Source of the DNA: a virus
Length of the DNA: 64,000 nt
Direction: 5' to 3' (one strand)
Virus record (IMG/VR): IMGVR_UViG_3300020438_005287
Location: 1-64,000 of that record
The notes below the pieces were generated by a model. That model searched no databases and was not told the origin of the DNA. It worked only from the letters and a program-made list of their open reading frames with translations. Positions within the stretch are counted from its first letter, which is position 1. Every line of letters starts with the position of its first letter. This document shows, in pieces, positions 801-30,598 of this stretch. Both the position numbers and the translations under genes were made by a program.

Positions 801-801
801 T

Positions 802-1521: not shown

Positions 1522-1551
1522 CTCAGTACCTTTTATATACTGGAATTGTAA

Positions 1552-9078: not shown

Positions 9079-9588
9079 CTAGCTATTTACACATCCTATT
9101 AAATGAATTCTTTGCTGTTTCGATCCATTAATAAATGTATGTGTTTCTGTTGTATTTATCTTGTAAACTTTTCCAACTTCCAAATGAAATCTTTGGCCAT
9201 GTTCAGGAAAATAAAAAACACATTGTGGATCTGTAATGATAGGAATGTGTACTCGCCAAGTACCATCTTGATGGAAAGAATAACAAGTTTTTTGGTTTTT
9301 AACCATAACCCTAGTTCTAAACAAATTTAAATCACAAACAATTTTTTCAATTATAGTGTTTTTAAAAATTTGATTGAGAAATTTAAAATCCTGCTCAACA
9401 GTACCTTTAGGGTATAATTTCAAACTTTCTAAACCATCAATTAAATTCCAAGGATCTAGCACATTTAATCTCGTTTGGACGCTAAAACCATCCATTCTCA
9501 ACGGTAAATCCTTGTACACATAGCTATTTACAATTTTTAACAATTGATTTATATCTATATTATAATTAATTACTTTTATTAATTCCAT
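9079..9588 (-). CDS. AspH-like 2OG-Fe(II) oxygenase
   Basis: A 169-residue protein and the clearest aspartyl/asparaginyl beta-hydroxylase-like sequence here. H106-Q-D108, then R112-V-H114-I-P, 'FHLEVGKVYKIN', H150 and N154, and R160-I-H-L follow the AspH order exactly. This fold hydroxylates Asp/Asn side chains in proteins or free amino acids. The frame is open to 9627, but the Met at 9588 is preferred because the extra residues overlap the radical SAM gene more deeply; the overlap is then 23 bp. It sits between a radical SAM enzyme and a nitroreductase, so it could act on the radical enzyme's product. A protein substrate is also possible. Confidence 0.78.
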   Translation of the reverse strand: MELIKVINYNIDINQLLKIVNSYVYKDLPLRMDGFSVQTRLNVLDPWNLIDGLESLKLYPKGTVEQDFKFLNQIFKNTIIEKIVCDLNLFRTRVMVKNQKTCYSFHQDGTWRVHIPIITDPQCVFYFPEHGQRFHLEVGKVYKINTTETHTFINGSKQQRIHLIGCVNS

Positions 9589-10693
9589 TTTTTTCCTTAG
9601 GAATTTTTGAATCAGCACTAGACACACAACTTTCAGTTATGCAAATTCGTGGTTTTTCTAATATCTTAAAGCCAGTTTCAATATTACCTAACGGTGCATC
9701 ATGACAACTGTAACTACGTTTTATACTTCCATCAGGTTCTCTAATAATTATACCTTGATATCCTGCATTACATGTCCAGCCTTTAAATTTATTAAAATTA
9801 AATGCATTTAACCTCTCTGCTTGATCAATATACCATTTTTTTCCATTAGAATCTTCAAATTCAACCTGCATATGCAAAGGCACTGACGCATCATTTTTTA
9901 ACATACTACCTGGATGCAATGCAAATTTAGGTTTTGGCCTTGCTTGCCATTTCCGCTTACTTTCTGTATAGGCACGCTGCGGCATACCATTCCACAATTT
10001 TTTTAATTGATCATCTGTATAACCATCAACTACACGACTTGCTGTAGGATCACTTTGAGGTTTTAGCGTTACATTTATTCCTTGTTCATGGAAAAAAAGT
10101 GCATTTTCCCAATCTCTGTCAAACCAGTCTGGCACCATTACTTGATTTATTGTAATTTCAACATCATACTCTTGACATAAATTTAATTTATCTGCAAAAT
10201 TTTGCATTTGTTCTTTAGTTCGAATATGCTCAGTATGTAAACTTGCGGTAATACTGGCTCTATGAAATTTTTTTGAATGTCCAATATATTGTTTGAACCA
10301 TTTTATGGGTCTGGAACAATTACTTGTCATATGTATAGACGTAAAGTTAGTGCTGGATACATCATCTGCCAAATATTTTAATATATCCAAATAACCAGGA
10401 TGAAATGTTGGTTCACCACCTGAGAGAGAAAAATGGAACGAATTATATCCGTTTTGTCTTGCTTGACGTTTGATTTCGTCTATAGTTTTTAAACATAACT
10501 CTGTAGGACGATGATCTTTAGTGTTGGATCTGGCATAAGGCCAACAATATGTGCAACGATAATTACAATATCTACCTAACAACCAACTGACCGTAAATAA
10601 ATCTCTGTATTTCAAAGTCCTTTGCCCAAAAGAAACTATATCATCAAAAGGTATTTTTGTAAAATCGTAATTAGACCAACTTAATTTTTCCAT
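9566..10693 (-). CDS. Radical SAM enzyme with C-terminal Cys-rich (SPASM-like) region
   Basis: A 375-residue protein with the [4Fe-4S]-SAM cluster motif C43-x3-C47-x2-C50 ('YCNYRCTYC') and the SAM-contacting 'SLSGGEPTFHP' near 110. The C-terminal quarter has further cysteines ('WTCNAGYQG', 'YSCHDAPLGNI', 'ICITESCVSS') in a layout like the SPASM/twitch auxiliary cluster domains. 'DGSIKRSYSC' resembles the SPASM strand that precedes the cluster Cys. It differs from the eight radical SAM proteins in the two blocks: it lacks the N-terminal Cys cluster and its core is more like anaerobic sulfatase-maturating or peptide-modifying enzymes. The substrate is unknown. It sits between two 2OG oxygenases and touches the upstream gene by one base. 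Confidence 0.88.
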   Translation of the reverse strand: MEKLSWSNYDFTKIPFDDIVSFGQRTLKYRDLFTVSWLLGRYCNYRCTYCWPYARSNTKDHRPTELCLKTIDEIKRQARQNGYNSFHFSLSGGEPTFHPGYLDILKYLADDVSSTNFTSIHMTSNCSRPIKWFKQYIGHSKKFHRASITASLHTEHIRTKEQMQNFADKLNLCQEYDVEITINQVMVPDWFDRDWENALFFHEQGINVTLKPQSDPTASRVVDGYTDDQLKKLWNGMPQRAYTESKRKWQARPKPKFALHPGSMLKNDASVPLHMQVEFEDSNGKKWYIDQAERLNAFNFNKFKGWTCNAGYQGIIIREPDGSIKRSYSCHDAPLGNIETGFKILEKPRICITESCVSSADSKIPKEKNGINKSN

Positions 10694-11487: not shown

Positions 11488-12332
11488 ATTATTTGTATAG
11501 GAATATCATGTGATTCAACCAATTTGGTTGCATTTGTAAAAGATTCTAACCATGCAGAGCCAAAATTATAAATATATTTGTCCTTTGATTGTGTTATATT
11601 ATAAATATCTTTTATTTGTTCTTCCATATTATTATTAATGGCTTTAATTTTTTCAATTGATTTAGAAAAATTATAATTACTTACGTGTTGAATATATTTT
11701 AAATGTTCATTTGGTGTCGGATGACAATCATCAAAGTACTTATGAATTTTTTTGCAATCCGCTTTTTTATTTTCTAAATTATTATTCCATAAATATGCAT
11801 AATAATCTTTAGGCATAATATCAATTATACTACTATATGTGTTTTTTAAAACATCTAATTTTTTGTTTACTACAATAGTATTATCAAATTGATCAAAAAT
11901 ATCAAAAGGATTAATCATACAAAGAAATTGTAAATTTGTTTTGCTTTTTAATAGCTGATACACAAAATAAATTTGTGCATAATCTCGTAACAAACAATGT
12001 TCTATAGAATTATATTTTCGAACAAACTTTCTATCGTAAATCTGTTGTGTGCTTAAATTACCTGGCAAAATCCATTCCTGTTTGCTTGTATATCTATCTT
12101 CTCTAAACACATTTGTCCAACAAATTACCACTAAATCATGTTTATTAAATTGGAAAAAATTATCAGCTTGTGCAATTATGTTACTGATGTACATGTTACC
12201 AGCTCCAGATTTTCCAAAATTGTAATAAGTGCAATTTAGATCATACGCTATTATATCTGCCCAAGTAGGCCATTTATATTTTGTAAAACTACAACCAAAA
12301 GAAAAAAAACGATCTATAGAATCTTTATACAT
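11481..12332 (-). CDS. SGNH/GDSL-hydrolase-like protein
   Basis: A 283-residue protein with the catalytic blocks of SGNH hydrolases: block I 'FSFGCSFTKY' (probable nucleophile S15), block II/III 'NFGKSGAGNMYISN', a beta-strand 'DLVVICWTNVFRED', and a C-terminal 'DDCHPTPNEH' carrying the Asp-x-x-His dyad. Such enzymes cleave or transfer acetyl and acyl esters, often on polysaccharides. The frame runs to 12410, but the ATG at 12332 is chosen: it starts just before block I and overlaps the PP-loop gene by only 8 bp. A second SGNH-like gene is at 23015. A likely job is O-acyl editing of a glycan made by the island. Confidence 0.7.
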   Translation of the reverse strand: MYKDSIDRFFSFGCSFTKYKWPTWADIIAYDLNCTYYNFGKSGAGNMYISNIIAQADNFFQFNKHDLVVICWTNVFREDRYTSKQEWILPGNLSTQQIYDRKFVRKYNSIEHCLLRDYAQIYFVYQLLKSKTNLQFLCMINPFDIFDQFDNTIVVNKKLDVLKNTYSSIIDIMPKDYYAYLWNNNLENKKADCKKIHKYFDDCHPTPNEHLKYIQHVSNYNFSKSIEKIKAINNNMEEQIKDIYNITQSKDKYIYNFGSAWLESFTNATKLVESHDIPIQIIC

Positions 12333-13017
12333 ATCTGCCAAATGCCCAGTATCTTTCCTTACACCACCAACATTTTCCACAATGATTTTTATAATTATCT
12401 GTAACATCATGCATACCTTCGCAAGAATATGTTACGGGAAATAGTGTTTCCAGTGTATTAGTTTGTTTATATAATTCTGCAACAAATCGTTTATCAACAC
12501 AATCAAATGGACGACTTGGCATTGGCTTATCTTTGATCTTATCTCTATCTATTACCCTCCATTTTGTTAAAAAATCATGTTTTATCATCTCTTTTTCAGG
12601 TGGATTAGCTGTTACTCCATATACAAATTTAAAAGTGCCAACACTGTTTTCTTCTAATCTTCTGTGTAAATCCCTAACATGCTCCTTTTCCTGTTCAGAA
12701 GTTTGTTTTTCTAATTGATTTTTTGGTTGTGGATCTATGAAATGATACAAAAATACATTTTTTCCAAGTATTTCATTAATTTTGTCTATAACCAACCTAG
12801 ACCTCCAGATATTCCAATTTTTTGGAAACGGTTGAGGATAAGGTCTTTCTCTCGTAAATGGCAATATCCTGGTATATGAAGTTGATTCAATTATATCCTT
12901 TGCGATTAAATATGTTAATATTGCACTATCAGCTCCTCCACTCAAAGAACACCCCAGCACATCTACATCAAGATCAGGAGTATAACAAAACCCATATCTA
13001 TTTTCATACTTCATCAT
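12325..13017 (-). CDS. QueC-like PP-loop ATPase (7-cyano-7-deazaguanine synthase family)
   Basis: A 230-residue protein with the PP-loop 'SLSGGADSA' (S26-S31), which binds ATP pyrophosphate, and a C-terminal zinc site C199, C213, C216 and C219 ('CGKCWWC') followed by Glu-Arg, as in QueC. QueC converts 7-carboxy-7-deazaguanine and ammonia to preQ0 by adenylating the carboxylate. Length is normal for QueC (about 220-230). However, no queD, queE or folE relative is visible, and this copy sits between an SGNH hydrolase and a run of radical SAM enzymes. It may instead adenylate a different carboxylate or thiolate a substrate. It overlaps both neighbours (8 and 14 bp). Two Met codons, 13017 and 13014, are possible starts. 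Confidence 0.75.
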   Translation of the reverse strand: MMKYENRYGFCYTPDLDVDVLGCSLSGGADSAILTYLIAKDIIESTSYTRILPFTRERPYPQPFPKNWNIWRSRLVIDKINEILGKNVFLYHFIDPQPKNQLEKQTSEQEKEHVRDLHRRLEENSVGTFKFVYGVTANPPEKEMIKHDFLTKWRVIDRDKIKDKPMPSRPFDCVDKRFVAELYKQTNTLETLFPVTYSCEGMHDVTDNYKNHCGKCWWCKERYWAFGRYV

Positions 13018-14278
13018 ATAAATATTCCTTTAAAATAGGTAGTGAACAATTTTTATATGTAAATCCTCTTATCAAATCTTGCTTGTTAATTTCATTTAAC
13101 ACGATATCTTTTAAATTTTTTTTATTGCCACTAGCAGGTAATATGTTTTCTACATACTTAATTATATTCGAAAAACTAATATCACAAGTATAATCATTTG
13201 AATTTAGTTGAAGGTCATCATTTACAAATGTGTGTAATAATTTATTACGTACTGCTAAAGGTAGTAAATTTACACTCCAAGGACTGTTACTTGGTTTAAG
13301 ACTTGTATCAAAATATATAAATTCTAAATTGTTATACTTTTTTTTATAGTAGTGAAACCACGAACGTAAATTTGGTAGGCACTCAATATTTAAATTCATT
13401 ACCAAACAAGATATATTAAATTTTATGTTTGGTAAGTTATCAATACTTGATAAAATTGTGTTTTCAAACGTTAACCATTTACTAGGCCAACGAATATAAT
13501 CATAAATGTTTGATATTCCGTCTATACTATATTTTATCTGTGTGTTGTTTAACTTCTTTAAAATTGGTAAAAAATCTTTATGGATGACCGTACCATTTGT
13601 AGTAATTACAATGTATATATCTGGATTATATTTTGCAGCTAATGATAATATTTTTATAAAATCTTTATTCAAAAAAGGCTCTCCGCCTGTAAATTTAAGC
13701 ACTTTCAATGTTGTAATATTTTTTTGTATATATGTACTCAAAGTTTCATCAACAGTTTTTTGAAAACTTTTATTTACTCGCCATGCAGATGGAATATTTT
13801 TATCTTGTAAATCACTTACTAAATCAGATATTTTTGTGCTTGAATTCCCATTACACATAACACAGGCTAAATTGCAAAAATTACTTGTTTTCAAATCAAA
13901 AAATATCGGCTGCGGATTTTCATAAAAATTTTTAGTTATATTTAAATTTCTTTTATTATCATGATATTCACGCAAAGCTCCTAATCTTGGACTATCTAAA
14001 TTTTTTTCTTCTTGTATCCAACATCTCTTACAAAGATTATTTTTTTGTCCAGTGATAAGATCTGAACGCAATTGCGTCATTACTGCGCCATAAAACCAAG
14101 TATTCCATCTGGTATTCTCTACTGAATAATTACCTACAACATCAGCATTACAACATGGAGCGTATCTTCCACGAACATTATAAAAAGCATGAACAAAAGG
14201 TAACGGACATATAGTATCCATACAGTATTTAGAAATGTCTATATTTTTTAAATATTGATAAAATTTTTGTTTTGTCAT
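13004..14278 (-). CDS. N-twitch radical SAM protein
   Basis: A 424-residue protein. The radical SAM cluster motif is C135-x3-C139-x2-C142 ('FCNLACVMC'), followed by 'KFTGGEPFLNKDF' near 195. Before it lies a separate Cys-rich domain: C24, 'CC' at 42-43, C83 and C86 ('CKRCW'), matching the N-terminal twitch domain of a radical SAM family known from phages and marine bacteria, expected to hold an auxiliary iron-sulfur cluster. The reaction is unknown. It is the third N-twitch member of block B, starts with a 4-bp ATGA overlap and runs 14 bp into the PP-loop gene, so the three N-twitch proteins and the PP-loop enzyme are likely made together. Confidence 0.88.
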   Translation of the reverse strand: MTKQKFYQYLKNIDISKYCMDTICPLPFVHAFYNVRGRYAPCCNADVVGNYSVENTRWNTWFYGAVMTQLRSDLITGQKNNLCKRCWIQEEKNLDSPRLGALREYHDNKRNLNITKNFYENPQPIFFDLKTSNFCNLACVMCNGNSSTKISDLVSDLQDKNIPSAWRVNKSFQKTVDETLSTYIQKNITTLKVLKFTGGEPFLNKDFIKILSLAAKYNPDIYIVITTNGTVIHKDFLPILKKLNNTQIKYSIDGISNIYDYIRWPSKWLTFENTILSSIDNLPNIKFNISCLVMNLNIECLPNLRSWFHYYKKKYNNLEFIYFDTSLKPSNSPWSVNLLPLAVRNKLLHTFVNDDLQLNSNDYTCDISFSNIIKYVENILPASGNKKNLKDIVLNEINKQDLIRGFTYKNCSLPILKEYLYDEV

Positions 14279-15387
14279 GTTTCTATTTTTTCTTTCAATT
14301 CAATTAAAGAAGGAATAGTATTGTAAATATCAACATGCAATTTATCTTCTGCATAATCTAAATATTTTATCAATTTTGTTATTGTATTTTTGTGCGGCTT
14401 AATATCTTTCAATATTGCATTACATAAATTCTGCATATTTTTTTGAGAATCATAATTTTTTGAACGAATTTTTTTAACTACATTTTCTCGCATTGCCATA
14501 GGCAAATTATACAATGTCATGTAATCTGGTTGAGTACAGATTGTATAATTAAATAAACATTCTTGTCTTACCATCTGTAATTTTTTATTAAACCATTCTA
14601 AGTAATCATATAAACCTAAAGTATTGATCACAGTAAAAGTAGGGACTACCCTGATAATCCAATCTTTATGTAGTTCTTGACTAAATTTTAAAATATTTTT
14701 TTCTACAGTTTTCCAATTACTTTTTACTCTTTGTATTTCATTCCACGAATTTACTCCATCAATACTACAATGTAATCTTCCAGTTTTATATTGATTAAGT
14801 TTCTGGATAATTTCATCATCACACAAACTTACATTTGTGATAAATTTTAAATCTAAAGTGCAAGGAATATTGTCTAAAAGTGTAAAAAGTTGTTTTTTAT
14901 TGTAAAATGGCTCTCCTCCTGCCAAACTAATAGATTTTAAATTTACACAATCACTTATAAAATTCATTATCTTGTTGAATTTAGTAGGTTCCCTCATCCA
15001 ACTCACGTGTGGATTAGGATTTTTATTAATCTTTCCCCAAAGATGGCTGTCACGTTCGCCACACATAAGACAAGTGTAATTACAAACATTTCCAATTCTC
15101 AAGTCAATATATTCTACTTGCCTTGGATCTAATTCAGCTGTAATTTTATTTTTTATCGGCCACATGGTATTCATGTTATCTTTGTGGCTTGCAAACAGAT
15201 TGCCTATATCAAAACAAGCTGTTTTACATCCTTGGATAATTTTTCCTTGTAATATTTCTTGCCTACCTTTAACCAAACTATCTGCATTATAATGCCATCC
15301 AATAGGATCTCTACTAACACAACAATAAGAAAATTCTCCTGTATTTTTTATTTGAACTGTGGTCCAAGGTGCGCTACAAAAAGTCAT
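14275..15387 (-). CDS. N-twitch radical SAM protein
   Basis: A 370-residue protein with the radical SAM motif C102-x3-C106-x2-C109 ('VCNYTCLMC') and 'SLAGGEPFYNK' near 155. The N-terminal twitch-type cysteines are C4, 'CC' at 22-23, C54 and C58. It is the shortest of the N-twitch group because both the N-terminal domain and the linker are compressed. It shares the phrases 'YIDLRxGxxC' and 'LHCSIDGVNSWNEIQR' style with its neighbours, which shows common descent. ATGA overlaps of 4 bp exist on both sides (15387/15384 and 14278/14275), an arrangement that favours fixed stoichiometry. Function unknown beyond SAM radical chemistry. Confidence 0.87.
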   Translation of the reverse strand: MTFCSAPWTTVQIKNTGEFSYCCVSRDPIGWHYNADSLVKGRQEILQGKIIQGCKTACFDIGNLFASHKDNMNTMWPIKNKITAELDPRQVEYIDLRIGNVCNYTCLMCGERDSHLWGKINKNPNPHVSWMREPTKFNKIMNFISDCVNLKSISLAGGEPFYNKKQLFTLLDNIPCTLDLKFITNVSLCDDEIIQKLNQYKTGRLHCSIDGVNSWNEIQRVKSNWKTVEKNILKFSQELHKDWIIRVVPTFTVINTLGLYDYLEWFNKKLQMVRQECLFNYTICTQPDYMTLYNLPMAMRENVVKKIRSKNYDSQKNMQNLCNAILKDIKPHKNTITKLIKYLDYAEDKLHVDIYNTIPSLIELKEKIET

Positions 15388-16796
15388 AAATCTTTTAAAA
15401 GTGGAAAAATATTATCAAATTTAGAAGTCCACCCTCTTTGCTGATTTATTGTAGCGATCCATTCTCTTGTTTCAGGTAACCGTTCACTCCAATCTTCAGA
15501 ATTCATAAAATTTATTATACCATTAAATCTTTTAATGCCATAAGGAGCATTTTTCCATGTCTCTAAATTTATGTTTGCTTGTGACACTCCTGTAAATTTG
15601 TCATAATTATCAATTAACCAAGGAAAAAATTCATAAAGGTATTTATTGGAAATTTTTTCCTTAAGATTTTTCGGTAATACTTTTACATTTAACTGCGGGG
15701 GCCAATATGCAAAGTGCATATTAATTCCACCGGCTCCTAGTGGCCATTTGTTTATTTTTTGGAAATTTTGGTTGACCTTCCATTTTACTAACTCTGGTAT
15801 ATAACCTATATTTAATGCCATAATAGTAGTAGCTATAGTCACTTCTATTTTATCATTAGTTTTATCTAATTTCCAAAAAACATCCTCTTGATGTTTCCAA
15901 TTTGAGGGATAACGAATATAATCATTTTGTTTCCCGTAAGCATCAATTGAATAATGGAATCTCACTCTTTTAAATTCATTCCATAAATCAAACAAATCAT
16001 CTCTCCATTCAACTGCATTACTATTATAGCGCAATTCAATATTTTTAGCATAATTTTTCCTGACGCATTCTTCTAATAAACTATAATGCTCATCTATAAT
16101 TAAACTTTCTCCACCAGCAAAATATAATTGATACATATGCGGTATTTGTTGCATTAAATCGTCCCAAAACAAAGGGTTGTTCTTATGCCAATTATATGAC
16201 GAACCATGTGATAAACCTTTATTATCCCAACTTTGATTCTTTATTAGCCTATTATTTTTTAATTTAGGAAAAATCTGTGTCCAATCCTTGATCCATCCAG
16301 ACGAATCATGTGGTGAACACATTACACAAGCAAGCTGGCATTTACTGCCCATACGTAGATCGATATATCTAATTTTAGGCTCTACAACACCATCAATTGA
16401 TGTTTCAGATACAAGTTGCTGTATATCATATCTTTTACTCCAGTAATCTGTTTCCCAATTACGTTTTGATATGTGGCCTGCTGCTTCTTCTTTATAACAT
16501 TTGATACAACTTTCTGGTTGTTTTCCTTGCAACATTAATTTACGCACATTTCTCATATAACCACTATTCCAAGCATCAGCCAATCTTGTGTTGTTAAAAT
16601 TTACAGATTCTCCTTTATCATTCTTCAACACACCAACCTCACCTCCCCCCGATTTTTTAGTAGAGTTTGGATCTTGTACAGAACTTGCATTAGATGTACA
16701 ACAGGTTCTCATTTTTCCATCTGGCCTACTTGATAGATGTATCCAAGGTAGAATACAAAAAGTTGGTGAAATTTCATTTTTAGGTAATTTACTCAT
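15384..16796 (-). CDS. N-twitch radical SAM protein
   Basis: A 470-residue protein. The radical SAM motif is C153-x3-C157-x2-C160 ('KCQLACVMC'), followed by 'LYFAGGESLIIDEH', where GGES replaces the usual GGEP. Twitch-type cysteines are C14 ('FCILPWIH'), 'CC' at 32-33, C97 and C100 ('CIKCY'). An insert of about 25 residues (36-60, Ser/Gly/Lys-rich) follows the CC pair. The frame is open upstream to 16832, but the ATG at 16796 is chosen because 'SKLPKNEISPTFC' matches the start of its relatives and leaves a 7-bp gap to the previous gene. It is most similar to the 29387 gene in block A ('YVDVR/YIDLR', 'GGE'). Substrate unknown. Confidence 0.87.
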   Translation of the reverse strand: MSKLPKNEISPTFCILPWIHLSSRPDGKMRTCCTSNASSVQDPNSTKKSGGGEVGVLKNDKGESVNFNNTRLADAWNSGYMRNVRKLMLQGKQPESCIKCYKEEAAGHISKRNWETDYWSKRYDIQQLVSETSIDGVVEPKIRYIDLRMGSKCQLACVMCSPHDSSGWIKDWTQIFPKLKNNRLIKNQSWDNKGLSHGSSYNWHKNNPLFWDDLMQQIPHMYQLYFAGGESLIIDEHYSLLEECVRKNYAKNIELRYNSNAVEWRDDLFDLWNEFKRVRFHYSIDAYGKQNDYIRYPSNWKHQEDVFWKLDKTNDKIEVTIATTIMALNIGYIPELVKWKVNQNFQKINKWPLGAGGINMHFAYWPPQLNVKVLPKNLKEKISNKYLYEFFPWLIDNYDKFTGVSQANINLETWKNAPYGIKRFNGIINFMNSEDWSERLPETREWIATINQQRGWTSKFDNIFPLLKDL

Positions 16797-16803
16797 ATTG
16801 AAT

Positions 16804-17871
16804 TCACGAAAATTGTTCAGTGAAGGGATCAAATTCTATGCCACATTTTACAGCACAAACTTTTAATTTTCCATTATCACAAGATTTTATTTTCCAACTT
16901 TTTTCTATTTTGTCAAAAATACCAGAATCAAATACATTTTTTAATCCATTCTTTGCATTTATACTATCTTTATCATCAATAAATTTCCAAATTTGCTCAA
17001 TCTTTGGATCATTATGCCACCATTTATACATCCTACCAGCAGTCCAACAGCAGGGCAAAGCTAATCCTTCTGCAGTAATAAATAAACTACCTATTTTTTT
17101 TACCTTACAATTTATCGGTACAGTGTCATAATACAAATCCATAGAATGGTGTTTTTGTACAAGTTGATTAATTTTAGACAACGCTGAATTTTGATATTTT
17201 TTTTCCGGTTTAGTAAGATTAAATATATTTTTACCTTTTTTATTAATAGATTGGTGAGAATCTTTTGGTTCCAAATTAGAAGTAACAAATCTTCCTGTTT
17301 TTTTAATTTGAAAACGTTCACAACCCCATTTATCTGCCATATCTTTTGCTTGTTCTATTTGATGTTGATTGTGTTCAAATACTATGTAATCCCAACGTGC
17401 TCTTCCTCCTGCACCTATAAATGCTTTCACATTTTGTTCTATATTTTCCCATAATACTCCTTGGCGATAAAGATGATTTGTATCTTGAAGTCCATCAATA
17501 GAAAAAATTACTGCAGCTGAACCACGTAACACTTTTGCAAGATCTTTCCACCAATTCTTGTCTCTTGCTCCGCCATTTGTGTTCATCGATAACCACATTG
17601 TTTTATTAGTTGTGCGAAAATAATCAAATATTTCTAAAGTATCGTTAGCAATAATAGGATCTCCTAGATTGCCACACATATACATTGTGTTTAATTGCAT
17701 TATAAACTTTTTATCAAATATTTTTTTACAATCTTGTAATGAAAGTTCATCTAAATTTATATGCGGATTTATCTTACCTCCATTTTGATTTCTATCACAC
17801 ATAGGGCAGCTAGCTTGACATTTTTGTGTCACTTCTAAATGTATTTGCTTGATATCAGAATATTTGTACAA
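16804..17871 (-). CDS. Radical SAM/SPASM-type protein, TTG start
   Basis: A 355-residue protein with C18-x3-C22-x2-C25 ('KCQASCPMC') right at the N-terminus, 'MCGNLGDPIIAND' in place of GGEP, 'NTNGGARDKNWW' and 'FSIDGLQDTNHLYRQ', then a C-terminal SPASM-like region: 'CKVKKIG', 'TAEGLALPCCW', 'VCAVKCGIEFDP'. It is a clear paralogue of the 26900 gene, sharing 'SIDGLxDTNHLYR' and 'NTNGG'. SPASM domains hold auxiliary Fe-S clusters and often act on peptides, but other substrates are known. The start is a TTG directly after the TAA of the upstream gene and in its frame; AAGG lies 8 bp before the TTG. No ATG exists before the cluster motif. Confidence 0.87.
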   Translation of the reverse strand: MYKYSDIKQIHLEVTQKCQASCPMCDRNQNGGKINPHINLDELSLQDCKKIFDKKFIMQLNTMYMCGNLGDPIIANDTLEIFDYFRTTNKTMWLSMNTNGGARDKNWWKDLAKVLRGSAAVIFSIDGLQDTNHLYRQGVLWENIEQNVKAFIGAGGRARWDYIVFEHNQHQIEQAKDMADKWGCERFQIKKTGRFVTSNLEPKDSHQSINKKGKNIFNLTKPEKKYQNSALSKINQLVQKHHSMDLYYDTVPINCKVKKIGSLFITAEGLALPCCWTAGRMYKWWHNDPKIEQIWKFIDDKDSINAKNGLKNVFDSGIFDKIEKSWKIKSCDNGKLKVCAVKCGIEFDPFTEQFS

Positions 17872-19276: not shown

Positions 19277-19491
19277 AATATTAACTTTATGTCTTTGGCG
19301 GGGCCAATTTCAGATGGTAATCCACCGTATTGATCTATGTACCATTTAATTACTGCTTTATACCAATTTTGACTATTATGATGTGCCTGTTGGTTAAATG
19401 TATATATATTTTTATTTGTAGCTTGTATAACAAATAGTGCTTTTGCACTTTCTTGTTGTAATTTTCTTAATGAAAGTTTATTTATATCCAA
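19273..19491 (-). CDS. Small conserved-context protein of unknown function
   Basis: A 72-residue protein, Asn/Gln/Lys-rich at the N-terminus with a pattern 'NWYKAVIKWYIDQYGG' predicted helical. It has no cysteines, no signal peptide and no motif I recognise. It overlaps the methyltransferase upstream by 14 bp and the next gene by 4 bp, so it is translated as part of the operon. Its lack of Cys and of a leader/core pattern argues against its being the substrate peptide of the nearby radical SAM enzymes. Could be a small adaptor. Real gene likely, function unknown. Confidence 0.4.
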   Translation of the reverse strand: MDINKLSLRKLQQESAKALFVIQATNKNIYTFNQQAHHNSQNWYKAVIKWYIDQYGGLPSEIGPAKDIKLIL

Positions 19492-20161: not shown

Positions 20162-21794
20162 AAACTTCTTTCAACCAATCAAAATCGTTAATTTTTTGTA
20201 GTGCTATGATGTTTCCTTGGTTATTGTATCCATATTCTCTACCCGCTGTGGCACCTAATATAGCATGTTGTCCATATGGTTTATCTTCACCAACTGTACA
20301 CCATATATTTAATCTATCTTCTGTTTCTTGATTTTTTTGTCGATCGATAACTTTTGAAGCTAATTTACAACATTCCCTAAAAGCTGATTTCCAGGTATTA
20401 AATGGATCTGTATTGAAAGTTGTTATATTAGAAATTGTGTTCATTGCTTTAAACTTGTCTGTAATACTAGTAGTCATGTCTGGTTTTGATAAATCCATAT
20501 CTACTGTAAGTTGCCTTGGAAATAATTTTACTCCACCATATCCGTAAACTAAATTATTAATAGGATTCTTTGATCTCCACACATGTACAGCATCTCGATC
20601 CCATCTTTCAACAAAATATTCAAAATTAAATTCATCTACAATTACAGCATCAGCATCGACAATCCAAAACATGTCTCTAGAACATATTTTTGCAGCTTCT
20701 ATGTGCGCTTGATGTATGCCTTTTACACCATGTATCCTTTTTGCAGCAGGATATTTTTTTAAAAGCTGGTGAAAATTTTGATCTGCAAAAGATTCATTGT
20801 AACTTATAAAAACAACATCATACGGTTTATGTTTGCTAACTACAATGTTGTGTTGTTTTTTATTTACAATATGCCGGAATGCAATTTCTCGTTCACTTAC
20901 AGGTATATGTTTTGAAAATAAGAAAACACCGTTTTCCTTTTTTTCATTGTTGCATATATTTTGGAATGCGTGATTTATGTGTCTTTCATAATGAAATTCA
21001 TCTGTACGATAATTATAATATAAATCAAATTCAAAATTATCTGATATAATATCACTACTAATACTCCAAAAAAGTTCAGTTTTAGTATTTTTCAATGCGT
21101 GTTTATAATCTGTATAATTATCAATCGTAAATTTATCATAATATTTTTGAGTGCTAGTTACAATAGGCCATTCTTTCCTAGATACTATGTGCCGATACTC
21201 GATTTCATTTTTAGTAATGGGTTTGTGTTTTGATAATAAAAAAAGTCCATCATACTTTTGTTCACCCTGTATATCATGTAAAAAAACGTGATTTTCGCAA
21301 CGATTGTATCTGTCACTAACTGGAAAATATAAATCAAAATTATATCCTGTTGTATCTATATTAATGCTATCTGCCCAAAATATTTCTGTAGTACTATTGT
21401 TTAAAGCATGCAAATAATCATCATATGTATCTATACAAAATTTATCATATGGCTTTGGATTACTAGCAACTATATCCACTTCTTTCTTACGAACTAAAAA
21501 TCTGTGTTCTATTTCTTTTTTAGATACTTTGTAATTTTTTGATGCTAACCAAATACCATCATTATATTGTTTATTTAAAAATACATGTGATATGTCTTGA
21601 CTTCCTTCATCTGGTTCATAATCAAAATCAAAATTATCGTTTACACAGACATCTGACCAAATACACCAGAAAAATTTTGTTATTGCTTGCCAGTTTGCAT
21701 CATCAAAACTATCTGCCTGTTTAATCGTAAAAAATTTTTCTTTTAATTTATAAAATTGTTGATCTTTTTTACCAATATAGAATATATCAAACAT
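20145..21794 (-). CDS. Glycosyltransferase-like protein with three N-terminal repeats
   Basis: A 549-residue protein of two parts. Residues 1-322 are three tandem repeats of about 104 residues (1-113, 114-217, 218-322). The last two are close, with shared 'YDKFxID', 'DYxHALxN', 'FDLYF/Y' and 'EIxxRHIV'; the first is more diverged. Residues 323-549 have a GT-A-like core: 'DVVFISYNES', 'AKRIHGVKG', the metal-binding triplet D380-A-D382 ('WIVDADAVI') and 'NLVYGYGGVKLFPR'. The core is homologous to the 30601 protein (DGDN, 'GLMYGNGGVKCWPR'). The repeats may bind carbohydrate or act as an acceptor scaffold. It overlaps UDP-sugar dehydrogenase by 8 bp. Sugar and acceptor unknown. Confidence 0.62.
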   Translation of the reverse strand: MFDIFYIGKKDQQFYKLKEKFFTIKQADSFDDANWQAITKFFWCIWSDVCVNDNFDFDYEPDEGSQDISHVFLNKQYNDGIWLASKNYKVSKKEIEHRFLVRKKEVDIVASNPKPYDKFCIDTYDDYLHALNNSTTEIFWADSINIDTTGYNFDLYFPVSDRYNRCENHVFLHDIQGEQKYDGLFLLSKHKPITKNEIEYRHIVSRKEWPIVTSTQKYYDKFTIDNYTDYKHALKNTKTELFWSISSDIISDNFEFDLYYNYRTDEFHYERHINHAFQNICNNEKKENGVFLFSKHIPVSEREIAFRHIVNKKQHNIVVSKHKPYDVVFISYNESFADQNFHQLLKKYPAAKRIHGVKGIHQAHIEAAKICSRDMFWIVDADAVIVDEFNFEYFVERWDRDAVHVWRSKNPINNLVYGYGGVKLFPRQLTVDMDLSKPDMTTSITDKFKAMNTISNITTFNTDPFNTWKSAFRECCKLASKVIDRQKNQETEDRLNIWCTVGEDKPYGQHAILGATAGREYGYNNQGNIIALQKINDFDWLKEVYEKYN

Positions 21795-23013
21795 TCAACC
21801 TTGTGTTGCCATAATGTACCACTGTGCACTTGCTATTTTGATAACTTCTCCACGGATCAACAACTATTGACCCATCTGGAATTATACAATACAAATCATC
21901 TTTTTCTGCTTGTTTAAGATATTTATATGTTACTGTACTCCTATGTGCTAACAAAAACACACACGGTTCTTTAGGTTGAAAAATATCACCAGTACAAGGA
22001 TCAACATAAGTCGGTTTGCATCCTAGTTGTTTACAATAATACCCTACTAATACGCTATAACTACCATCGCAAAAAGGCACTTTTGGCTTATAAGCTTTGC
22101 CATGTATTACAATTTGTAAATTTGATCCTTTGCTTAATTCTACTAACTTTTTTGCTAAATTTTCTGCTTGTATTTCGCGAGCATTCATTATACTATCAAA
22201 AAGATCATAACCTAAATTTAAATTATCACTCATCCAACGTAATGCAATATTATCTCTAGGATGACATGCTCCTCCGTCACCCATTCCTGCAGTCATATAT
22301 TGCGGACCCATAATTCTTTGCGAGCTTTTAGCAAGTGCATCTGTCACAATATCAACATTTATATTACCCTGTGATTCAGCTACATCCTGTATCATATTTA
22401 CAAGGCTTAATTTTGCACTAATAAAAGTATTATAAAATATTTTTATACACTCGCACTCATCCCATGTACCTACCACATAACGAGGATTGTTTTCCATCAT
22501 AGATTCATAAAACTCTGACAATCTTTTTGCAATACCTGTAATGGACCCATTTTGAGTGCCAATCATTACCATTTCAGGATTAACCATATCCCATGCTACT
22601 GAACCCATAGCTATAAGATAAGGATTATAAATAAATTCTGTATTTGTAGTAAACTCTATCAACTCCCTACGTACAGTACCAGGTAACACTGTACTGATCA
22701 ATACCAACAATTGATTTTTGCCCATCCATTTATTTGCTTCTGCTAATACCTCTTTAACAACATCATATGAAAAATCCTTTGATTGTAAATGGGCAACAGG
22801 AGTGCTGCCATCATAATTTTTATCATGTGGTGTTGGCACAGCAACAAATACAATCTCTTTGTTTTTTACAACAAGTTCTATATTTTTTACAGTATCAAAA
22901 AATTTACTTTTAGTTAGATTTATATCATAACCTTCTACTTCATGCCCTTTTTTTGCAATAACTTCCGCACAGGGCATTCCTAACTTGCCTAAACCAATAA
23001 AACCTATTCGCAT
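21787..23013 (-). CDS. UDP-glucose/GDP-mannose 6-dehydrogenase family protein
   Basis: A 408-residue protein. The N-terminal Rossmann motif is 'IGFIGLGKLGMP' (3-14), followed by 'FVAVPTPHDK' (56-65), 'ISTVLPGTV' (106-114), 'YNPYLIAMG' in the substrate loop, a long interdomain helix with 'FYNTFISAKLSLVNM', and the catalytic cysteine C250 in 'GGACHPRD'. The GGxCxPxD motif is diagnostic: the enzyme oxidises the C6 alcohol of a UDP- or GDP-sugar to the uronic acid using two NAD+, supplying UDP-glucuronate or a similar donor. Length fits the family (about 400). Its position in front of glycosyltransferases makes this the donor-sugar step of the island. The exact nucleotide sugar cannot be decided. 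Confidence 0.9.
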   Translation of the reverse strand: MRIGFIGLGKLGMPCAEVIAKKGHEVEGYDINLTKSKFFDTVKNIELVVKNKEIVFVAVPTPHDKNYDGSTPVAHLQSKDFSYDVVKEVLAEANKWMGKNQLLVLISTVLPGTVRRELIEFTTNTEFIYNPYLIAMGSVAWDMVNPEMVMIGTQNGSITGIAKRLSEFYESMMENNPRYVVGTWDECECIKIFYNTFISAKLSLVNMIQDVAESQGNINVDIVTDALAKSSQRIMGPQYMTAGMGDGGACHPRDNIALRWMSDNLNLGYDLFDSIMNAREIQAENLAKKLVELSKGSNLQIVIHGKAYKPKVPFCDGSYSVLVGYYCKQLGCKPTYVDPCTGDIFQPKEPCVFLLAHRSTVTYKYLKQAEKDDLYCIIPDGSIVVDPWRSYQNSKCTVVHYGNTRLNV

Positions 23014-23014
23014 G

Positions 23015-25351: not shown

Positions 25352-25374
25352 CTTATAAAGATTGTATCAAAATA

Positions 25375-26907
25375 TTAAAAAACTTTATTATCAAAAGATT
25401 TTTGCGTATGTTGGCATTCAAGGAAAAAATCTTTCAATTCAGGAAACATTTTACACAAATTTTTATTTCTTTTTTTATCATATTGTACAAAAAATTTTGC
25501 AAAATTTGCTCTATCAATTGCATTACTATTTGTTTTTAAAAATTGTAAATTTCTTTCCATTTTTGCTATCTCAAAATCATAAAATCCATTAAAGTTATCA
25601 ATTTTTGTATTGGTTTTCATAAAATCAATAGCATTTTCTAAATTTTTACTATATATTGATTCCGGTAAAATATTTACTGCCATCCATTTTGGATTCCGCA
25701 GTAAAGGTATATCGAACCAAATTCGCTGGCGAGGATAGTACTCATAATCTGGATGTTTTGTATAAGGATCCTGAATTGGAATCTTAACAATAGTTTGATT
25801 ATTTTTACTAAAATGTGTTCTCAAATCTAAAATAAATTTCAAATAATCTAATGTATTACACACACTGAACACACTGAAAGTATTAATAAACGTTACTGTA
25901 GTATTATTTGTTTCTTGTAAAAACCTATATACATTATCAACCATATAATTAAAATTTAATCCATCACGCACATATTCTGCTTTAGCATTTGTATTATCAA
26001 CACTAATAAAAAGTGCAAAATTTTTCAATGCAGGATTGACGTACCAATGATTACCACTACCAGGGTTAAATCTTTCTTTATCTTCCCAAATTTGTATTTT
26101 TTCTAATTTTTTTACAGCTTGTAAAAATTTATCCATTAATTCTTTCTTGTTAGGAGAAAAATTTGTTGTAATTGATAATTCTAGCCATCTGTTTGGATTG
26201 TTGTACACATAATCTAAAATTTTGTATGTATTAGAATCCATTAATGGTTCACCTCCGGTAATTCTAAAAACTTGTAAAGATTTATAAAGTTTTGGCCACC
26301 AATTCCAAAATGCCGTAATATATGGATTATTTTTTTGAGCTACTTTCAAAGGCATAAATCCTAATTCGTTCAATGCCTCTAAATTATTATGTTTGACAGT
26401 TTTATTACCTTGGTAAATTTCATAATCACCCTTTTCTTGTATATGCTGTTCCCAAGTAGAGCTTAAATGCGGAGAACAATAAGCACAAGAAAGATTACAT
26501 GCTTGATTAAAATTTACTTCAACATAAGTAGGATCAATATTATCTGTATCTAATTTAGAAAAAATTTCTTTTCTAGAATCTTGTGCCCAATATTCACCAG
26601 ATTTATAAACTCTATCACTCCTTTCATTACGTTTTTCTATATCCCAGCAATACGAACATCCACGAGGCTGTGCACCTTTCAACATCATTGTTCTTTCTTG
26701 TTTTTTTTGCCTAGTATTATGTAATGCTGACGGATCATTCAAAATTTCATAAGGATCAATTTTATGTAATGGAGGATGATAACAACTACTGCCTAGTCCA
26801 TTTGTTAAATGCAAAGATACTTGTGCCCATTTGGCATAACACATAGTAGGACTTATCATTTTTAATTGTTTTTCTGCTTTATCAGCATCTGCATTATAAT
26901 CACTCAT
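25375..26907 (-). CDS. N-twitch radical SAM protein
   Basis: A 510-residue protein with the radical SAM motif C137-x3-C141-x2-C144 ('ACNLSCAYC'), 'RITGGEPLMDSN' about 70 residues later, and twitch-type cysteines C23, C42, C84 and C87 ('CSYCW'). It has the phrases 'SPTMCYAKW', 'SCYHPPLHKI' and 'DPSALHN', shared almost word for word with the 28002 protein, so these two are recent paralogues. The single Cys at 42 (not CC) is another trait shared with that protein. The frame is open to 27003; the ATG at 26907 is chosen, giving an 8-bp overlap with the SPASM-type gene. It is the last gene of block A. Confidence 0.88.
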   Translation of the reverse strand: MSDYNADADKAEKQLKMISPTMCYAKWAQVSLHLTNGLGSSCYHPPLHKIDPYEILNDPSALHNTRQKKQERTMMLKGAQPRGCSYCWDIEKRNERSDRVYKSGEYWAQDSRKEIFSKLDTDNIDPTYVEVNFNQACNLSCAYCSPHLSSTWEQHIQEKGDYEIYQGNKTVKHNNLEALNELGFMPLKVAQKNNPYITAFWNWWPKLYKSLQVFRITGGEPLMDSNTYKILDYVYNNPNRWLELSITTNFSPNKKELMDKFLQAVKKLEKIQIWEDKERFNPGSGNHWYVNPALKNFALFISVDNTNAKAEYVRDGLNFNYMVDNVYRFLQETNNTTVTFINTFSVFSVCNTLDYLKFILDLRTHFSKNNQTIVKIPIQDPYTKHPDYEYYPRQRIWFDIPLLRNPKWMAVNILPESIYSKNLENAIDFMKTNTKIDNFNGFYDFEIAKMERNLQFLKTNSNAIDRANFAKFFVQYDKKRNKNLCKMFPELKDFFLECQHTQKSFDNKVF

Positions 26908-28021
26908 GTTTTTTATCAATGAAAAGATTAGCAAATCGTCTTTGCGATTTTTTACAGTTTTCATAACAAAAATGAAAAGGGTTGTAATCAAACTTACTTG
27001 CAAACATTTGTAATGAATTTGTGTGATTTATTATTTGTTCTAATGAAAAATAATGTAAATTATTTTTTTCTCTTAAATGTTTGTACTGATCATGTAATTC
27101 TGACACACTAGATTTGTAAGCTGCTCCATTAGCTGCATTCCCTACCAAACAACATGGATAAACTTTACCTTGTGCTGATACATATAATTCTTGCATAGCA
27201 ACATTAGGATCAGATTCTAATTTATCAAAACTATAACAACGTATACATTCATCTTTTTTTAATTCTACACTCTTCTTTGGTAACGGACTTGGTTTCCCTA
27301 CAAATTTGCCACCAGCAGGCATTTTAGGTAATTCTTTTTCATGATGTTCTAAATAATATTCTAATTCAAAATTTTTGTCTAACACAGGCATAGCAAAATT
27401 TTCTACACCAAATGGATTTTTTAACATTAATGATACTCCATATTTTTCTGCAAGAAGTCTTGCTTCATCTATCTGATGATTATTATGTTTAAATCTTAAA
27501 AAATCCCAATGTATGTTAGCTCCTGTTTCTGCACAAGCAGCAAGATTTGCTTCTAATTTTTTCCAAACAACATTTCTTCTGTAAAGATGGTTTGTATCTT
27601 CTAATCCGTCAATAGAAAAAACAATATAACGATATGTATCTATTTTAGAATGATTATGCACTGAATTTTTAAATAAATTTCCTAATTTTCTAAAAAATTT
27701 AGGATTCCTTAAGCCTCCGTTAGTGTTTAATTGCACCCGAGATACACTATTGTTACAAACATATTCTAAAATTTTATATATATCAGGACACGCCAATGGA
27801 TCTCCTTGACTACCACAAAATAACCATCTTTTAATTTTTTTAGTAAAATTTAAAGGAAACCACTTTTGGAAATTTTCAATATTGATAGAAGTCAAAATTA
27901 AGTCCGGATTGACATTAGGACTATAATTAACATGCCTAGTACAACCAGGACAAGCTGCATTACAAAGTGAACTTGGTTCAATATGCAGTGCATTAATTTT
28001 ATTATATTCCCATTTTATCAT
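26900..28021 (-). CDS. Radical SAM/SPASM-type protein
   Basis: A 373-residue protein with C20-x3-C24-x2-C27 ('LCNAACPGC'), 'FCGSQGDPLACPD' in the GGEP position, 'LNTNGGLRNPKFF' and 'FSIDGLEDTNHLYRR', then C-terminal cysteines in 'CIRCYSFDKLE', 'YPCCLVGN' and 'FCYENCKK', like a SPASM/twitch domain. It is paralogous to the 16804 protein. The GTG-initiated extension to 28045 is rejected: the ATG at 28021 begins 'MIKWEYNKI', has a GAG upstream and overlaps the previous gene by only 20 bp. It lies between the two closely related N-twitch paralogues, so the three may act together. Substrate unknown. Confidence 0.87.
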   Translation of the reverse strand: MIKWEYNKINALHIEPSSLCNAACPGCTRHVNYSPNVNPDLILTSINIENFQKWFPLNFTKKIKRWLFCGSQGDPLACPDIYKILEYVCNNSVSRVQLNTNGGLRNPKFFRKLGNLFKNSVHNHSKIDTYRYIVFSIDGLEDTNHLYRRNVVWKKLEANLAACAETGANIHWDFLRFKHNNHQIDEARLLAEKYGVSLMLKNPFGVENFAMPVLDKNFELEYYLEHHEKELPKMPAGGKFVGKPSPLPKKSVELKKDECIRCYSFDKLESDPNVAMQELYVSAQGKVYPCCLVGNAANGAAYKSSVSELHDQYKHLREKNNLHYFSLEQIINHTNSLQMFASKFDYNPFHFCYENCKKSQRRFANLFIDKKHE

Positions 28022-29390
28022 TATAAATATCTCTAGATTTGGCACACAAATCCCAAAAATCTTTCATTTCCGGAAAAGTATGTAAAAAATTTGTGTTTCG
28101 CCTTTTATCATATTCTGTAAACCAATAAAAAAAATCTTTTCTACCCTCTAAAATTTTATCTTCATCATAATTTGATTGTAAAAAATAATTTTTTACCCTT
28201 CTAAAACGTTCATATTCTAAACTGCTAAACAATGTTGTATCTTTATCATCACAATTTTTATGTATAAAATTTAATATATTATCAAAATATTTACTAAATT
28301 GATCTTTTGGTAATATATTCATATCATATTGTAATGGTTCTTTTAAATATGGAGTATCAAATCTTATACGGCGTGCTTTGCTATTATAAAATTTTTTCCG
28401 TAAATCTAAAATTTTTTGTAAAAATAAGATAAAACTTGTAACACTTAGTATATTAAAAGTACACATAATACTTACATTTCCATTTGTTGATTCTAAAAAG
28501 TATGTTAAATTCTTTTCCCACAACTCTATTTGCAATCCTGTGCGTAAGTATTCAGCCCTATCATTATATGTATCAATACTAGTATATAATTTAAATTTAC
28601 GCACTGATTTTTTGTCTTCTAATAAATTAACTTTTTGTGCAAGTTTTTTAACAAGTCTATGCGTAACTCCTAAATTACTGTTGATATTTAATTCAAGATG
28701 AGGCTTTTTGTTTATTAATAGGTCATCCAAAATCTGCCACGTACTCCTATGCAATAAAGGCTCACCGCCAGTAATTCTTAATATATTAAGTGTTTGGCTA
28801 ACTTCAGGCCACCACTTCCACCATGCATCAACATATGGATTGTCCTTTTCATCAATAGGAGTAAACCAATCAACATTAACACGATGATTACTTACTTGCT
28901 TGACAGGACCATATTTTTCAACTTCAGCATAATACGAACTACTTGCCATTGGATGGCAATATCCGCATTTAAAATTACATTCGTTACTGAAAGAAATTTC
29001 AATGTATTCAGGATTAATATCAAAGTCCCAATTATTTTTAAGTATTTCATCTACCCGATCTTTTTTGTAGATACTTTGATTTCTTATCATTCTATCTGAA
29101 ATATGATCATCACCTAATTCTTCAACGTTCCAACAATATTGGCATCCTTCACACTTAACACCAACTAACATTTGTGCTCGTTCTTTCTTTTTTTGTAATG
29201 TATTATGCAATGCTGAAGGATTTTTTTTAATTTCATTTAATGAAATTTTGTGCGGTGACGGATGATAACAACTATGAGTGTCACCTGTATGCAAATAAAT
29301 TGTTGTATGATGCCACTTTGCTAAACAAAATGTAGGACTTATTTTATCCATCAAAAAATTATTTTGTCTTATTAAATTAGTTTCACTCAT
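28002..29390 (-). CDS. N-twitch radical SAM protein
   Basis: A 462-residue protein with the radical SAM motif C138-x3-C142-x2-C145 ('ECNFKCGYC') and 'RITGGEPLLHRS'. N-terminal twitch-type cysteines are C22, C41, C83 and C86 ('CQYCW'). 'KISPTFCLAKW' and 'SCYHPSPHKI' are nearly the same as in the 25375 protein; the rest of the N-terminal domain and the core also align by eye, so this is its paralogue. The 4-bp ATGA overlap with the upstream gene (29387) and the 20-bp overlap with the SPASM-type gene keep block A translationally coupled. The pair may make a heterodimer or act on two sites of one substrate; this is inference. Confidence 0.88.
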   Translation of the reverse strand: MSETNLIRQNNFLMDKISPTFCLAKWHHTTIYLHTGDTHSCYHPSPHKISLNEIKKNPSALHNTLQKKKERAQMLVGVKCEGCQYCWNVEELGDDHISDRMIRNQSIYKKDRVDEILKNNWDFDINPEYIEISFSNECNFKCGYCHPMASSSYYAEVEKYGPVKQVSNHRVNVDWFTPIDEKDNPYVDAWWKWWPEVSQTLNILRITGGEPLLHRSTWQILDDLLINKKPHLELNINSNLGVTHRLVKKLAQKVNLLEDKKSVRKFKLYTSIDTYNDRAEYLRTGLQIELWEKNLTYFLESTNGNVSIMCTFNILSVTSFILFLQKILDLRKKFYNSKARRIRFDTPYLKEPLQYDMNILPKDQFSKYFDNILNFIHKNCDDKDTTLFSSLEYERFRRVKNYFLQSNYDEDKILEGRKDFFYWFTEYDKRRNTNFLHTFPEMKDFWDLCAKSRDIYNDKMGI

Positions 29391-30598
29391 ATACTTTGAT
29401 TTTCTATACCATATAATTCTGGAAAAACATTATATAAATTTTCATTACGTATAGCATCTCTACTATCAACTTGATTCAAAAAATTTATTTTTTGTTTTTT
29501 CCACAAATCTACACTATACGCTAAATCTAAAAGACTATATAAATTGTTTGCAAAATAATACCCTTCTTTTTTCCAAATACTAGCTTCTGTATAAAATTTG
29601 TCTTTGACTTTATTTTTAAAGGACATTGGTAATACGCAAGGAGAAAAATGTTCAGGATTTTGACAAGCAGTAAAAGTGATATTTGTCGTTTTTGTAAATA
29701 GCCTTTCATTTATCATGTAATGTATAAAATTTATAAGCGTTAAAAAACTAAAATTTGTAACAGTGACATTATAATCTATATTGATATTTGATAATTTTTG
29801 TAACTGTTTTATATTTTTACATACAACTTGCCATTTTGTACCATGCCGTATATACTCTGCACGACTACCATAATGATCAATACTTGCATAAAATTGAACT
29901 TCTTTATATTGATTCCATAGATCAATAATATTCTTTTTTTTATATTTTATTGTACTCATATTTGAATTGTACCGTAGTTTAATATCTACACTACGTCCTG
30001 ATTCAATAATTTTTTCCAGTAAAATAAAATGCTCATTCATTAGCAGCGGTTCTCCGCCTGCAAAATAAACCACTTTGATATTTGGAATTTGCTCTATAAT
30101 TTTATTAACTATAGATTTGTTTGCACTAATAATAGGAAATTCATTTCCATTTTCCTCTGCCCACGAACTACTAAATAGTGACCCGCACATTCTACATTTA
30201 AAATTGCACTTATTACTTAGTCTAACATCTACATATAGCATTTTAAAATTATCTAAAGAACCGTCTGAATTTGTAGATGACACTATATTCTCAAATTCCG
30301 ATTCATATTCAAAAGATGACGTACGAAAACTATTAGCAGAATATTTTTCACTTTTATAACAAGTTTCGCAATATTTAGATGGTTCATCGGCTAGCATCTT
30401 GAGCCGTAGTTCCTTCATTTTTTTAGAATTTGTTAATTCTAAAAAACTTTGTTCTTTTACATTTGAAACGAATGGATTCATATCTCCAAGTAAACAACAA
30501 GGATACATTTCTGAATTAGGAGTAAACATCATATGTATCCAAGGAAACATACAAAAATTTTTACTTTTATTAAAATAATAATTTTTGTCAAATTTCAT
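29387..30598 (-). CDS. N-twitch radical SAM protein
   Basis: A 403-residue protein. The radical SAM motif is C131-x3-C135-x2-C138 ('KCNFKCRMC'), with 'YFAGGEPLLMNEH' later. Twitch-type cysteines are C16 ('FCMFPWIH'), 'CC' at 34-35, C77 and C80 ('CETCY'). It is closest to the 15384 protein of block B (shared 'FPWIH/LPWIH', 'YVDVRLSNKC', 'YSIDxYG/ASIDHYG'). So this subtype is present once in each block. It is the first radical SAM gene of block A, two bases after the glycosyltransferase at 30601, and its start ATG has upstream coding DNA but no visible promoter. Chemistry unknown. Confidence 0.88.
   Translation of the reverse strand: MKFDKNYYFNKSKNFCMFPWIHMMFTPNSEMYPCCLLGDMNPFVSNVKEQSFLELTNSKKMKELRLKMLADEPSKYCETCYKSEKYSANSFRTSSFEYESEFENIVSSTNSDGSLDNFKMLYVDVRLSNKCNFKCRMCGSLFSSSWAEENGNEFPIISANKSIVNKIIEQIPNIKVVYFAGGEPLLMNEHFILLEKIIESGRSVDIKLRYNSNMSTIKYKKKNIIDLWNQYKEVQFYASIDHYGSRAEYIRHGTKWQVVCKNIKQLQKLSNINIDYNVTVTNFSFLTLINFIHYMINERLFTKTTNITFTACQNPEHFSPCVLPMSFKNKVKDKFYTEASIWKKEGYYFANNLYSLLDLAYSVDLWKKQKINFLNQVDSRDAIRNENLYNVFPELYGIENQSI

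Follow-up and report, generated by a model that had tools for sequence, protein, structure and literature searches.

The conserved unit behind a dense array of radical SAM (rSAM) genes in a T4-like phage is one cassette, composed of two GT-A glycosyltransferase (GT)-like genes (GT0A and GT0B), a methyltransferase-like gene (MT14), the small-protein gene SP72 and the rSAM genes R17, R2' and R13, with a further rSAM gene, R1, paired with GT0A; rSAM genes outside this core and R1 are variable additions. The cassette enzymes, without SP72, also co-localise on Bdellovibrionota chromosomes, and the phages therefore appear to carry an undescribed biosynthetic pathway. We tentatively propose, with a confidence somewhat short of even, that it is a phage-borne biosynthetic gene cluster within the tail-fibre/host-recognition module, which would make a surface glycoconjugate through glycosylation and radical tailoring.

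Genomic setting and identity of the radical SAM genes

The window (the whole stretch of DNA that was analysed) covers the first 64,000 bases of a linear IMG/VR virus record 69,660 bases long, and its source is a T4-like aquatic phage. T4-like baseplate and tail-fibre proteins are encoded at 35-64 kb, and the rSAM/GT region lies on the minus strand directly behind the tail-fibre genes. The gene at 35225 matches tail/virion families and the one at 57704, on the baseplate/tail-fibre flank, matches phrog_10646 (1.6e-289); the GT/rSAM genes are thus flanked by baseplate wedge and tail-fibre genes, as expected of the host-recognition region of a T4-like myophage. A single 5422-aa ORF (41421-57689), with little similarity in related loci, is situated between the tail-fibre and baseplate genes. 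The genes of the rSAM/GT region are listed below.

30601..31524, minus strand: GT0A, GT-A-fold glycosyltransferase-like, invariant DxD, first gene of the GT0A-R1 pair (alignment, AlphaFold model)
29387..30598, minus strand: N-twitch rSAM, variable member (NF033640 348 bits; nearest relatives ~40% in other phages)
28002..29390, minus strand: R1, N-twitch rSAM, conserved partner of GT0A (NF033640 304 bits)
26900..28045, minus strand: rSAM with C-terminal SPASM/twitch-like domain, divergent paralogue of 16804 (SPASM 21.2 bits, just under the 21.5 cut-off; tree)
25375..27003, minus strand: N-twitch rSAM, R1-like paralogue of 28002 (NF033640 283 bits; own clade with other phages and L156)
21787..23013, minus strand: UDP-glucose/GDP-mannose dehydrogenase family enzyme (UGD), directly upstream of GT0B (PF03721, PF00984; phrog_9148 8.6e-98)
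20145..21794, minus strand: GT0B, N-terminal GT-A-like repeats and C-terminal GT-A domain, first gene of the SP72 cassette (tree clade)
19478..20161, minus strand: MT14, Rossmann methyltransferase-like from its sequence (no Pfam or NCBIfam match)
19273..19491, minus strand: SP72, conserved 72-aa protein, TTG start (28-sequence alignment)
16804..17871, minus strand: R17, rSAM with C-terminal twitch-like domain (PF04055 29.2 bits against a cut-off of 29.5)
15384..16832, minus strand: R2', N-twitch rSAM, most constant cassette rSAM (NF033640 399 bits)
14275..15387, minus strand: N-twitch rSAM, variable member (NF033640 182 bits; orthologues in L170, L254)
13004..14278, minus strand: N-twitch rSAM, variable member (NF033640 233 bits; orthologues in L170, L254)
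12325..13017, minus strand: PP-loop ATPase-like with CxxCxxC, QueC-like below cut-off, recurrent accessory gene (PF06508 20.0 bits, cut-off 22; family in 19/45 related loci)
9566..10693, minus strand: R13, rSAM with C-terminal Cys cluster C308, C330, C351, C356 (invariant alignment columns)

All nine rSAM ORFs of the original prediction are present at the positions it gave, on the minus strand, and each carries one CX3CX2C motif together with a match to PF04055, confirming the assignment of these CxxxCxxC genes; nine clear rSAM domains within 21 kb are not explained by chance occurrence of the motif. The PF04055 score exceeds the curated cut-off (29.5 bits) for 9566, 13004, 14275 and 29387 and lies below it, at 22.8-29.2 bits, for the remaining five. 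The predicted division into N-twitch and C-terminal types was reproduced with NF033640, the N-twitch rSAM profile (cut-off 170 bits, whole-protein score), which is passed by 13004, 14275, 15384, 25375, 28002 and 29387 (182-399 bits); in 16804, 26900 and 9566 the match is below cut-off and confined to the catalytic domain, and C-terminal Cys clusters are found instead. The extra-cluster cysteines are invariant in the 28002, 29387/15384 and 9566 families, so the enzymes look intact. In the R1 alignment the invariant cysteines are C22, C41, C83 and C86 plus C138/C142/C145, and the R1 structure model has a pLDDT of 92.6.

Two known rSAM functions were considered and rejected. For prokaryotic viperin (NF038283), the best score among the nine is 42.6 bits against a cut-off of 180. 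The region resembles phage queuosine/preQ0 genes in pairing rSAMs with a QueC-like PP-loop protein (12325), but this protein is under the QueC cut-off (20.0 against 22 bits), and no window rSAM passes QueE, the models reaching at most ~23 bits against 260-300.

Paralogy among the radical SAM genes

Eight of the genes had been described as two parallel blocks, A (25375-30598) and B (13004-17871), each downstream of a related GT. The named paralogue pairs hold in blastp comparisons (16804 with 26900, 5e-41; 15384 with 29387, 2e-44; 25375 with 28002, 8e-90). The GTs 30601 and 20145 are likewise related (blastp 2e-31), but 20145 is not directly upstream of block B, as 19478, 19273, 18806 and 17872 intervene before 16804. 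Trees separate the members of A and B: the six window N-twitch genes fall into separate clades, each with genes of other phages and not together, 16804 clusters with Bdellovibrionota genes (97/99) apart from 26900, and GT0A and GT0B belong to two distinct conserved clades whose gene neighbourhoods differ. Most of the nine genes have a relative outside the window that is closer, often by far, than any window paralogue, with best outside identities of 72-79% for 15384 and 9566, 69% for 28002 and 66% for 16804. The weakest case is 26900 (35% outside against 34% inside the window); 14275, ambiguous in the initial comparison, has 53% relatives in further loci. A recent duplication of block A into block B is ruled out by the trees and by the best relatives lying outside the window. 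Neither block is a copy of the other: the paralogous relationships do exist but are ancient, so that speaking of two parallel blocks is misleading, the conserved unit being a single cassette.

A conserved cassette in phage genomes

Relatives of R1 (28002) occur at 78 viral loci, at 33-100% and mostly 55-69% identity, and a recurrent gene order around such genes is tail fibres, a 114-aa gene, two GTs, a 186-aa gene, GT0A and R1. Relatives of R2' (15384) show 50-75% identity in most of the best 80 viral loci; on these contigs, 45 of them non-redundant, the order is GT0B, MT14, SP72, R17 and R2', followed downstream by a variable set of more rSAMs, PP-loop proteins and R13. Locus counts refer to the best 80 matches, with ORFs called by a simple script in sequence collections that contain fragments. 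One locus, L191/L254, comes close to the window order, with orthologues of 14275 and 13004, a PP-loop gene and R13. GT0B and MT14 are apparently fused in several phages, as judged from protein length, gene order and the missing separate MT14; in the tree, the GT0B clade is accompanied by R13/R17/MT14 contexts. NDP-sugar epimerases and further GT-like families adjoin the cassette in relatives. The proposed tie of the rSAMs to GT-like genes is supported, the GT-A paralogues 30601 and 20145 both lying in the conserved cassette.

The density of rSAM genes, considered very unusual in the original prediction, proved to be widespread: 6-13 rSAM genes per ~21 kb are common in relatives, and whole viral contigs with the cassette carry 1-17 N-twitch rSAMs. 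T4-like TARA_ERS488813_N000010 has 12 rSAM genes and Fe-S assembly genes (PMC5332604), and in the host-recognition clusters of pelagimyophages a hypervariable tail-fibre region contains GTs as well as rSAM cassettes (PMC7029224). Since such rSAM-rich T4-like marine viruses are already published, density alone is not new. The best-scoring N-twitch gene matches R2' in length and score in 13/13 contigs examined. An A-type Fe-S carrier, encoded on 4/14 cassette contigs, is in line with the Fe-S cluster demand.

Several further observations were made on the viral contigs. The most extreme arrays (L139, L219, L222, G995) include 13 rSAM genes packed into ~22 kb and a viral contig of 243 kb with 17 N-twitch genes. 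A second family of tiny peptides, about 38-56 aa long and sharing the C-terminal end ...KKKLxELRKRDPFIYx, is encoded near rSAM/GT genes in phages and on one Bdellovibrionota chromosome (L144:5816-5986, L165 near 2782-2913, L178:1216-1332, L048:9183-9314, L068:9198-9314 and others); it was not found in the window. Among INPHARED cultured-phage records, 28002, GT0A and SP72 have no match, and cultured phages were set aside as a source of relatives, yielding only weak rSAM relatives in Vibrio phages. One of these, Vibrio phage K566 (L001, 17965-24701), carries a small N-twitch-like rSAM array with ~24% identity to window genes and is a possible laboratory model.

SP72, a small protein linked to the cassette

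No obvious substrate gene had been noticed in the region; SP72, which was overlooked, is a strictly linked candidate acceptor or precursor, or alternatively a candidate accessory subunit. Its gene shares 14 nt with the end of MT14 and 4 nt with the ORF that follows. Relatives show 46-72% identity along the entire protein (28-sequence alignment), the conserved C-terminal half reads AHHNSQNWYKAVIxWYxxxYGDLPSxxGPGK, and polar or aromatic amino acids (R, Q, E, N, H, S, W, Y) account for most of the invariant positions. With a median dN/dS of 0.18 (60 pairs with dS below 1.5), SP72 is under strong purifying selection.

When SP72 itself, and not an rSAM, served as the query, at least 444 viral contigs proved to encode it. 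In the 38 non-redundant loci from the best 80 of these contigs, SP72 follows GT/methyltransferase genes without exception (38/38) and was never seen without the cassette. The gene immediately upstream is MT14 in 28 loci and GT0, likely GT0-MT14, in 9, and in the remaining locus MT14 lies one gene further away; 36/38 include R17. Conversely, SP72 was found in 25/37 non-redundant phage loci with cassette enzymes, the other 12/37 being without detectable SP72. Its association with any particular accessory rSAM is not significant. SP72 matches no Pfam, PHROG or NCBIfam family, and comparison with solved structures in the PDB returned only chance helical or antibody matches.

A counterpart in Bdellovibrionota

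Bdellovibrionota loci were reached by a genome scan with the N-twitch alignment. One of them is on a 493-kb contig (L336) with ordinary chromosomal genes as flanks, where GT0A (44% identity), GT0B (50%), R2' (53%), R17 (48%) and R13 (60%) lie within about 7 kb; in most other loci examined, R13 stands beside R2' and/or R17, often with MT14 or GT0. R2' is 49-55% identical to the Bdellovibrionota copies, MT14 34-47% identical to genes in Bdellovibrionota loci and L143, and R13 64% identical to a chromosomal gene of L144. SP72 was absent from the Bdellovibrionota loci tested, even at a low threshold, and no recognised tail fibres lie beside the bacterial cassettes; for the most part, the bacterial loci examined do not look like obvious polysaccharide clusters.

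An R13-type gene was detected in 17/291 sampled Bdellovibrionota genomes, some of the copies possibly on misbinned phage contigs, and in 0/398 Pseudomonadota and 0/296 Bacteroidota genomes. In the tree, phage R13 genes form one clade next to the bacterial ones and a separate short-type phage clade. Bacterial-MAG contigs with the phage tail-fibre/GT/rSAM order (L090, L098, L100, L102, L103, L346) are probably misbinned or integrated phage; L346, in the Bdellovibrionota set, is probably a misbinned phage contig. Orphan N-twitch genes in Bacteroidota, Paenibacillus and Alphaproteobacteria were tried as a functional guide, and with no constant neighbour they offer no functional clue. Elsewhere in the window (730-7096), three fatty-acid-desaturase-type proteins (730, 2166, 6323) occur with Asp/Asn-hydroxylase and PhyH genes; the gene at 1552 is 59% identical to an Oligoflexia MAG gene (L113) adjoining an N-twitch rSAM, and that locus also holds homologues of window 730, 2908 and 3632.

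Proposed function and alternatives

GT0A has invariant D66 and D68 in the alignment, and its AlphaFold model (pLDDT 90) finds GT-A enzymes as the best named fold matches at a low TM (~0.3); it is thus predicted to be a GT-A glycosyltransferase-like protein. The weak matches of GT0A include the GT of mycobacteriophage Che8, and SunS/ThuS peptide S-glycosyltransferases are among the low-TM matches of GT0, which has no curated family match. The N-terminal ~320 residues of GT0B resemble several degenerate copies of a GT-A half-domain.

In the proposed glycoconjugate pathway, the GT-A proteins would load sugars onto an acceptor, drawing on NDP-sugars shaped by host enzymes and the product of 21787. 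The rSAMs would split SAM at the CX3CX2C cluster to give a 5'-deoxyadenosyl radical and, aided by the extra twitch cluster, could oxidise, epimerise or cross-link C-H positions, and MT14, a putative methyltransferase, may add methyl groups. The resulting glycoconjugate would be displayed on the infected cell or the virion and alter phage recognition; variable rSAMs would give variable products from a fixed core, and SP72 may act as a phage-specific acceptor, precursor or accessory subunit.

Three points favour this pathway: bacteria and some phages have the enzymes but not SP72, UGD, epimerase and other GT-like genes adjoin the cassette, and the N-twitch profile matches the auxiliary domain of BtrN (E 4e-7). 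In that aminocyclitol dehydrogenase the twitch/auxiliary-cluster domain is C-terminal, unlike N-twitch. The position directly behind the tail fibres, where pelagimyophages carry GTs and rSAM cassettes (PMC7029224), also speaks for it. So do the fixed order and co-occurrence in phages, the apparent GT0B-MT14 fusions, the core orthologues on bacterial chromosomes, the rSAM families with their cluster-ligating cysteines, the DxD and model of GT0, and the purifying selection on SP72. Counting against it are the lack of a curated family for GT0, its TM of ~0.3 and the scarcity of obvious polysaccharide clusters among the bacterial loci; moreover, the polar and aromatic residues conserved in SP72 would fit a peptide substrate as well, and peptides are the more frequent substrates of twitch/SPASM enzymes.

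In the main rival, which we consider somewhat unlikely, SP72 would be a ribosomal precursor or fixed scaffold, with R17/R2' and other rSAMs modifying its C-terminal half, GT0B glycosylating and MT14 methylating it, to give a RiPP-type peptide against the host or competitors. The strict dependence of SP72 on the enzymes (38/38 non-redundant loci from the best 80), its small size and overlap with the MT14 end, the character of its invariant residues, the Asp/Asn-hydroxylase-like genes nearby in the window and the SunS/ThuS matches fit this explanation; the absence of SP72 from the Bdellovibrionota cassette and its lack in 12/37 enzyme-bearing phage loci do not. SP72 is, in addition, conserved along its whole length with no clear leader/core split. 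The region shares with rSAM RiPP systems (SPASM maturases, e.g. SkfB, PqqE) an auxiliary-cluster rSAM beside a small conserved ORF, but the auxiliary domain is N-terminal in 6/9 window enzymes, no RRE, protease/leader peptidase or exporter was recognised in the subset of window ORFs scanned, and the bacterial relatives are without the small ORF. It is also unlikely that widespread uncultured T4-like phages carry a complete rSAM natural-product pathway with SP72 as precursor or carrier, a core common to Bdellovibrionota, and rSAMs combinatorially expanded to diversify the product.

Alternatively, the targets of glycosylation and radical modification might be the phage's own tail fibres or other structural proteins, whose genes lie next to those of the enzymes. 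In many phages, tail-fibre genes are directly followed by GT3, GT4, GT0A and R1; mycobacteriophages are an established case of virion glycosylation (cited in PMC12619734), and the weak fold matches of GT0A include the Che8 GT. We regard this as improbable, given that the core enzymes are 50-79% conserved against about 30-49% for the adjoining tail-fibre genes, unlike enzymes tracking a variable substrate, and that the bacterial cassettes have no recognised adjoining tail fibres. Similarly improbable is a hypervariable island that gathers unrelated rSAM and GT genes acting separately: N-twitch rSAMs do vary from 1 to 17 per contig and the order outside the core varies, but core order and co-occurrence are kept across phages and recur in bacteria.

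Relation to known systems and significance

The NF033640 family, shared by the six window proteins above cut-off, has no function assigned; its window members form arrays around a fixed GT/methyltransferase/small-protein cassette. Pelagimyophages and TARA_ERS488813_N000010 are, like the window, T4-like marine phages, and the available text of those reports describes neither the conserved cassette nor SP72 or the bacterial counterpart (PMC7029224, PMC5332604). All three appear to be undescribed in the literature searched, which included few subscription journals and parts of the cited papers; the same search returned nothing pertinent on Bdellovibrionota rSAM clusters or phage RiPPs.

In the available portions of earlier reports, marine-phage rSAM genes were counted with no function or fixed unit given. 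A defined cassette that includes a small partner protein and recurs on hundreds of viral contigs, with its enzymes also on chromosomes of a predatory bacterial lineage, turns them into a testable pathway. Such a pathway, here tentatively read as one for a surface glycoconjugate, would show that lytic-type phages devote genes to radical chemistry of several steps, and the N-twitch rSAM family would gain a candidate setting and partner.
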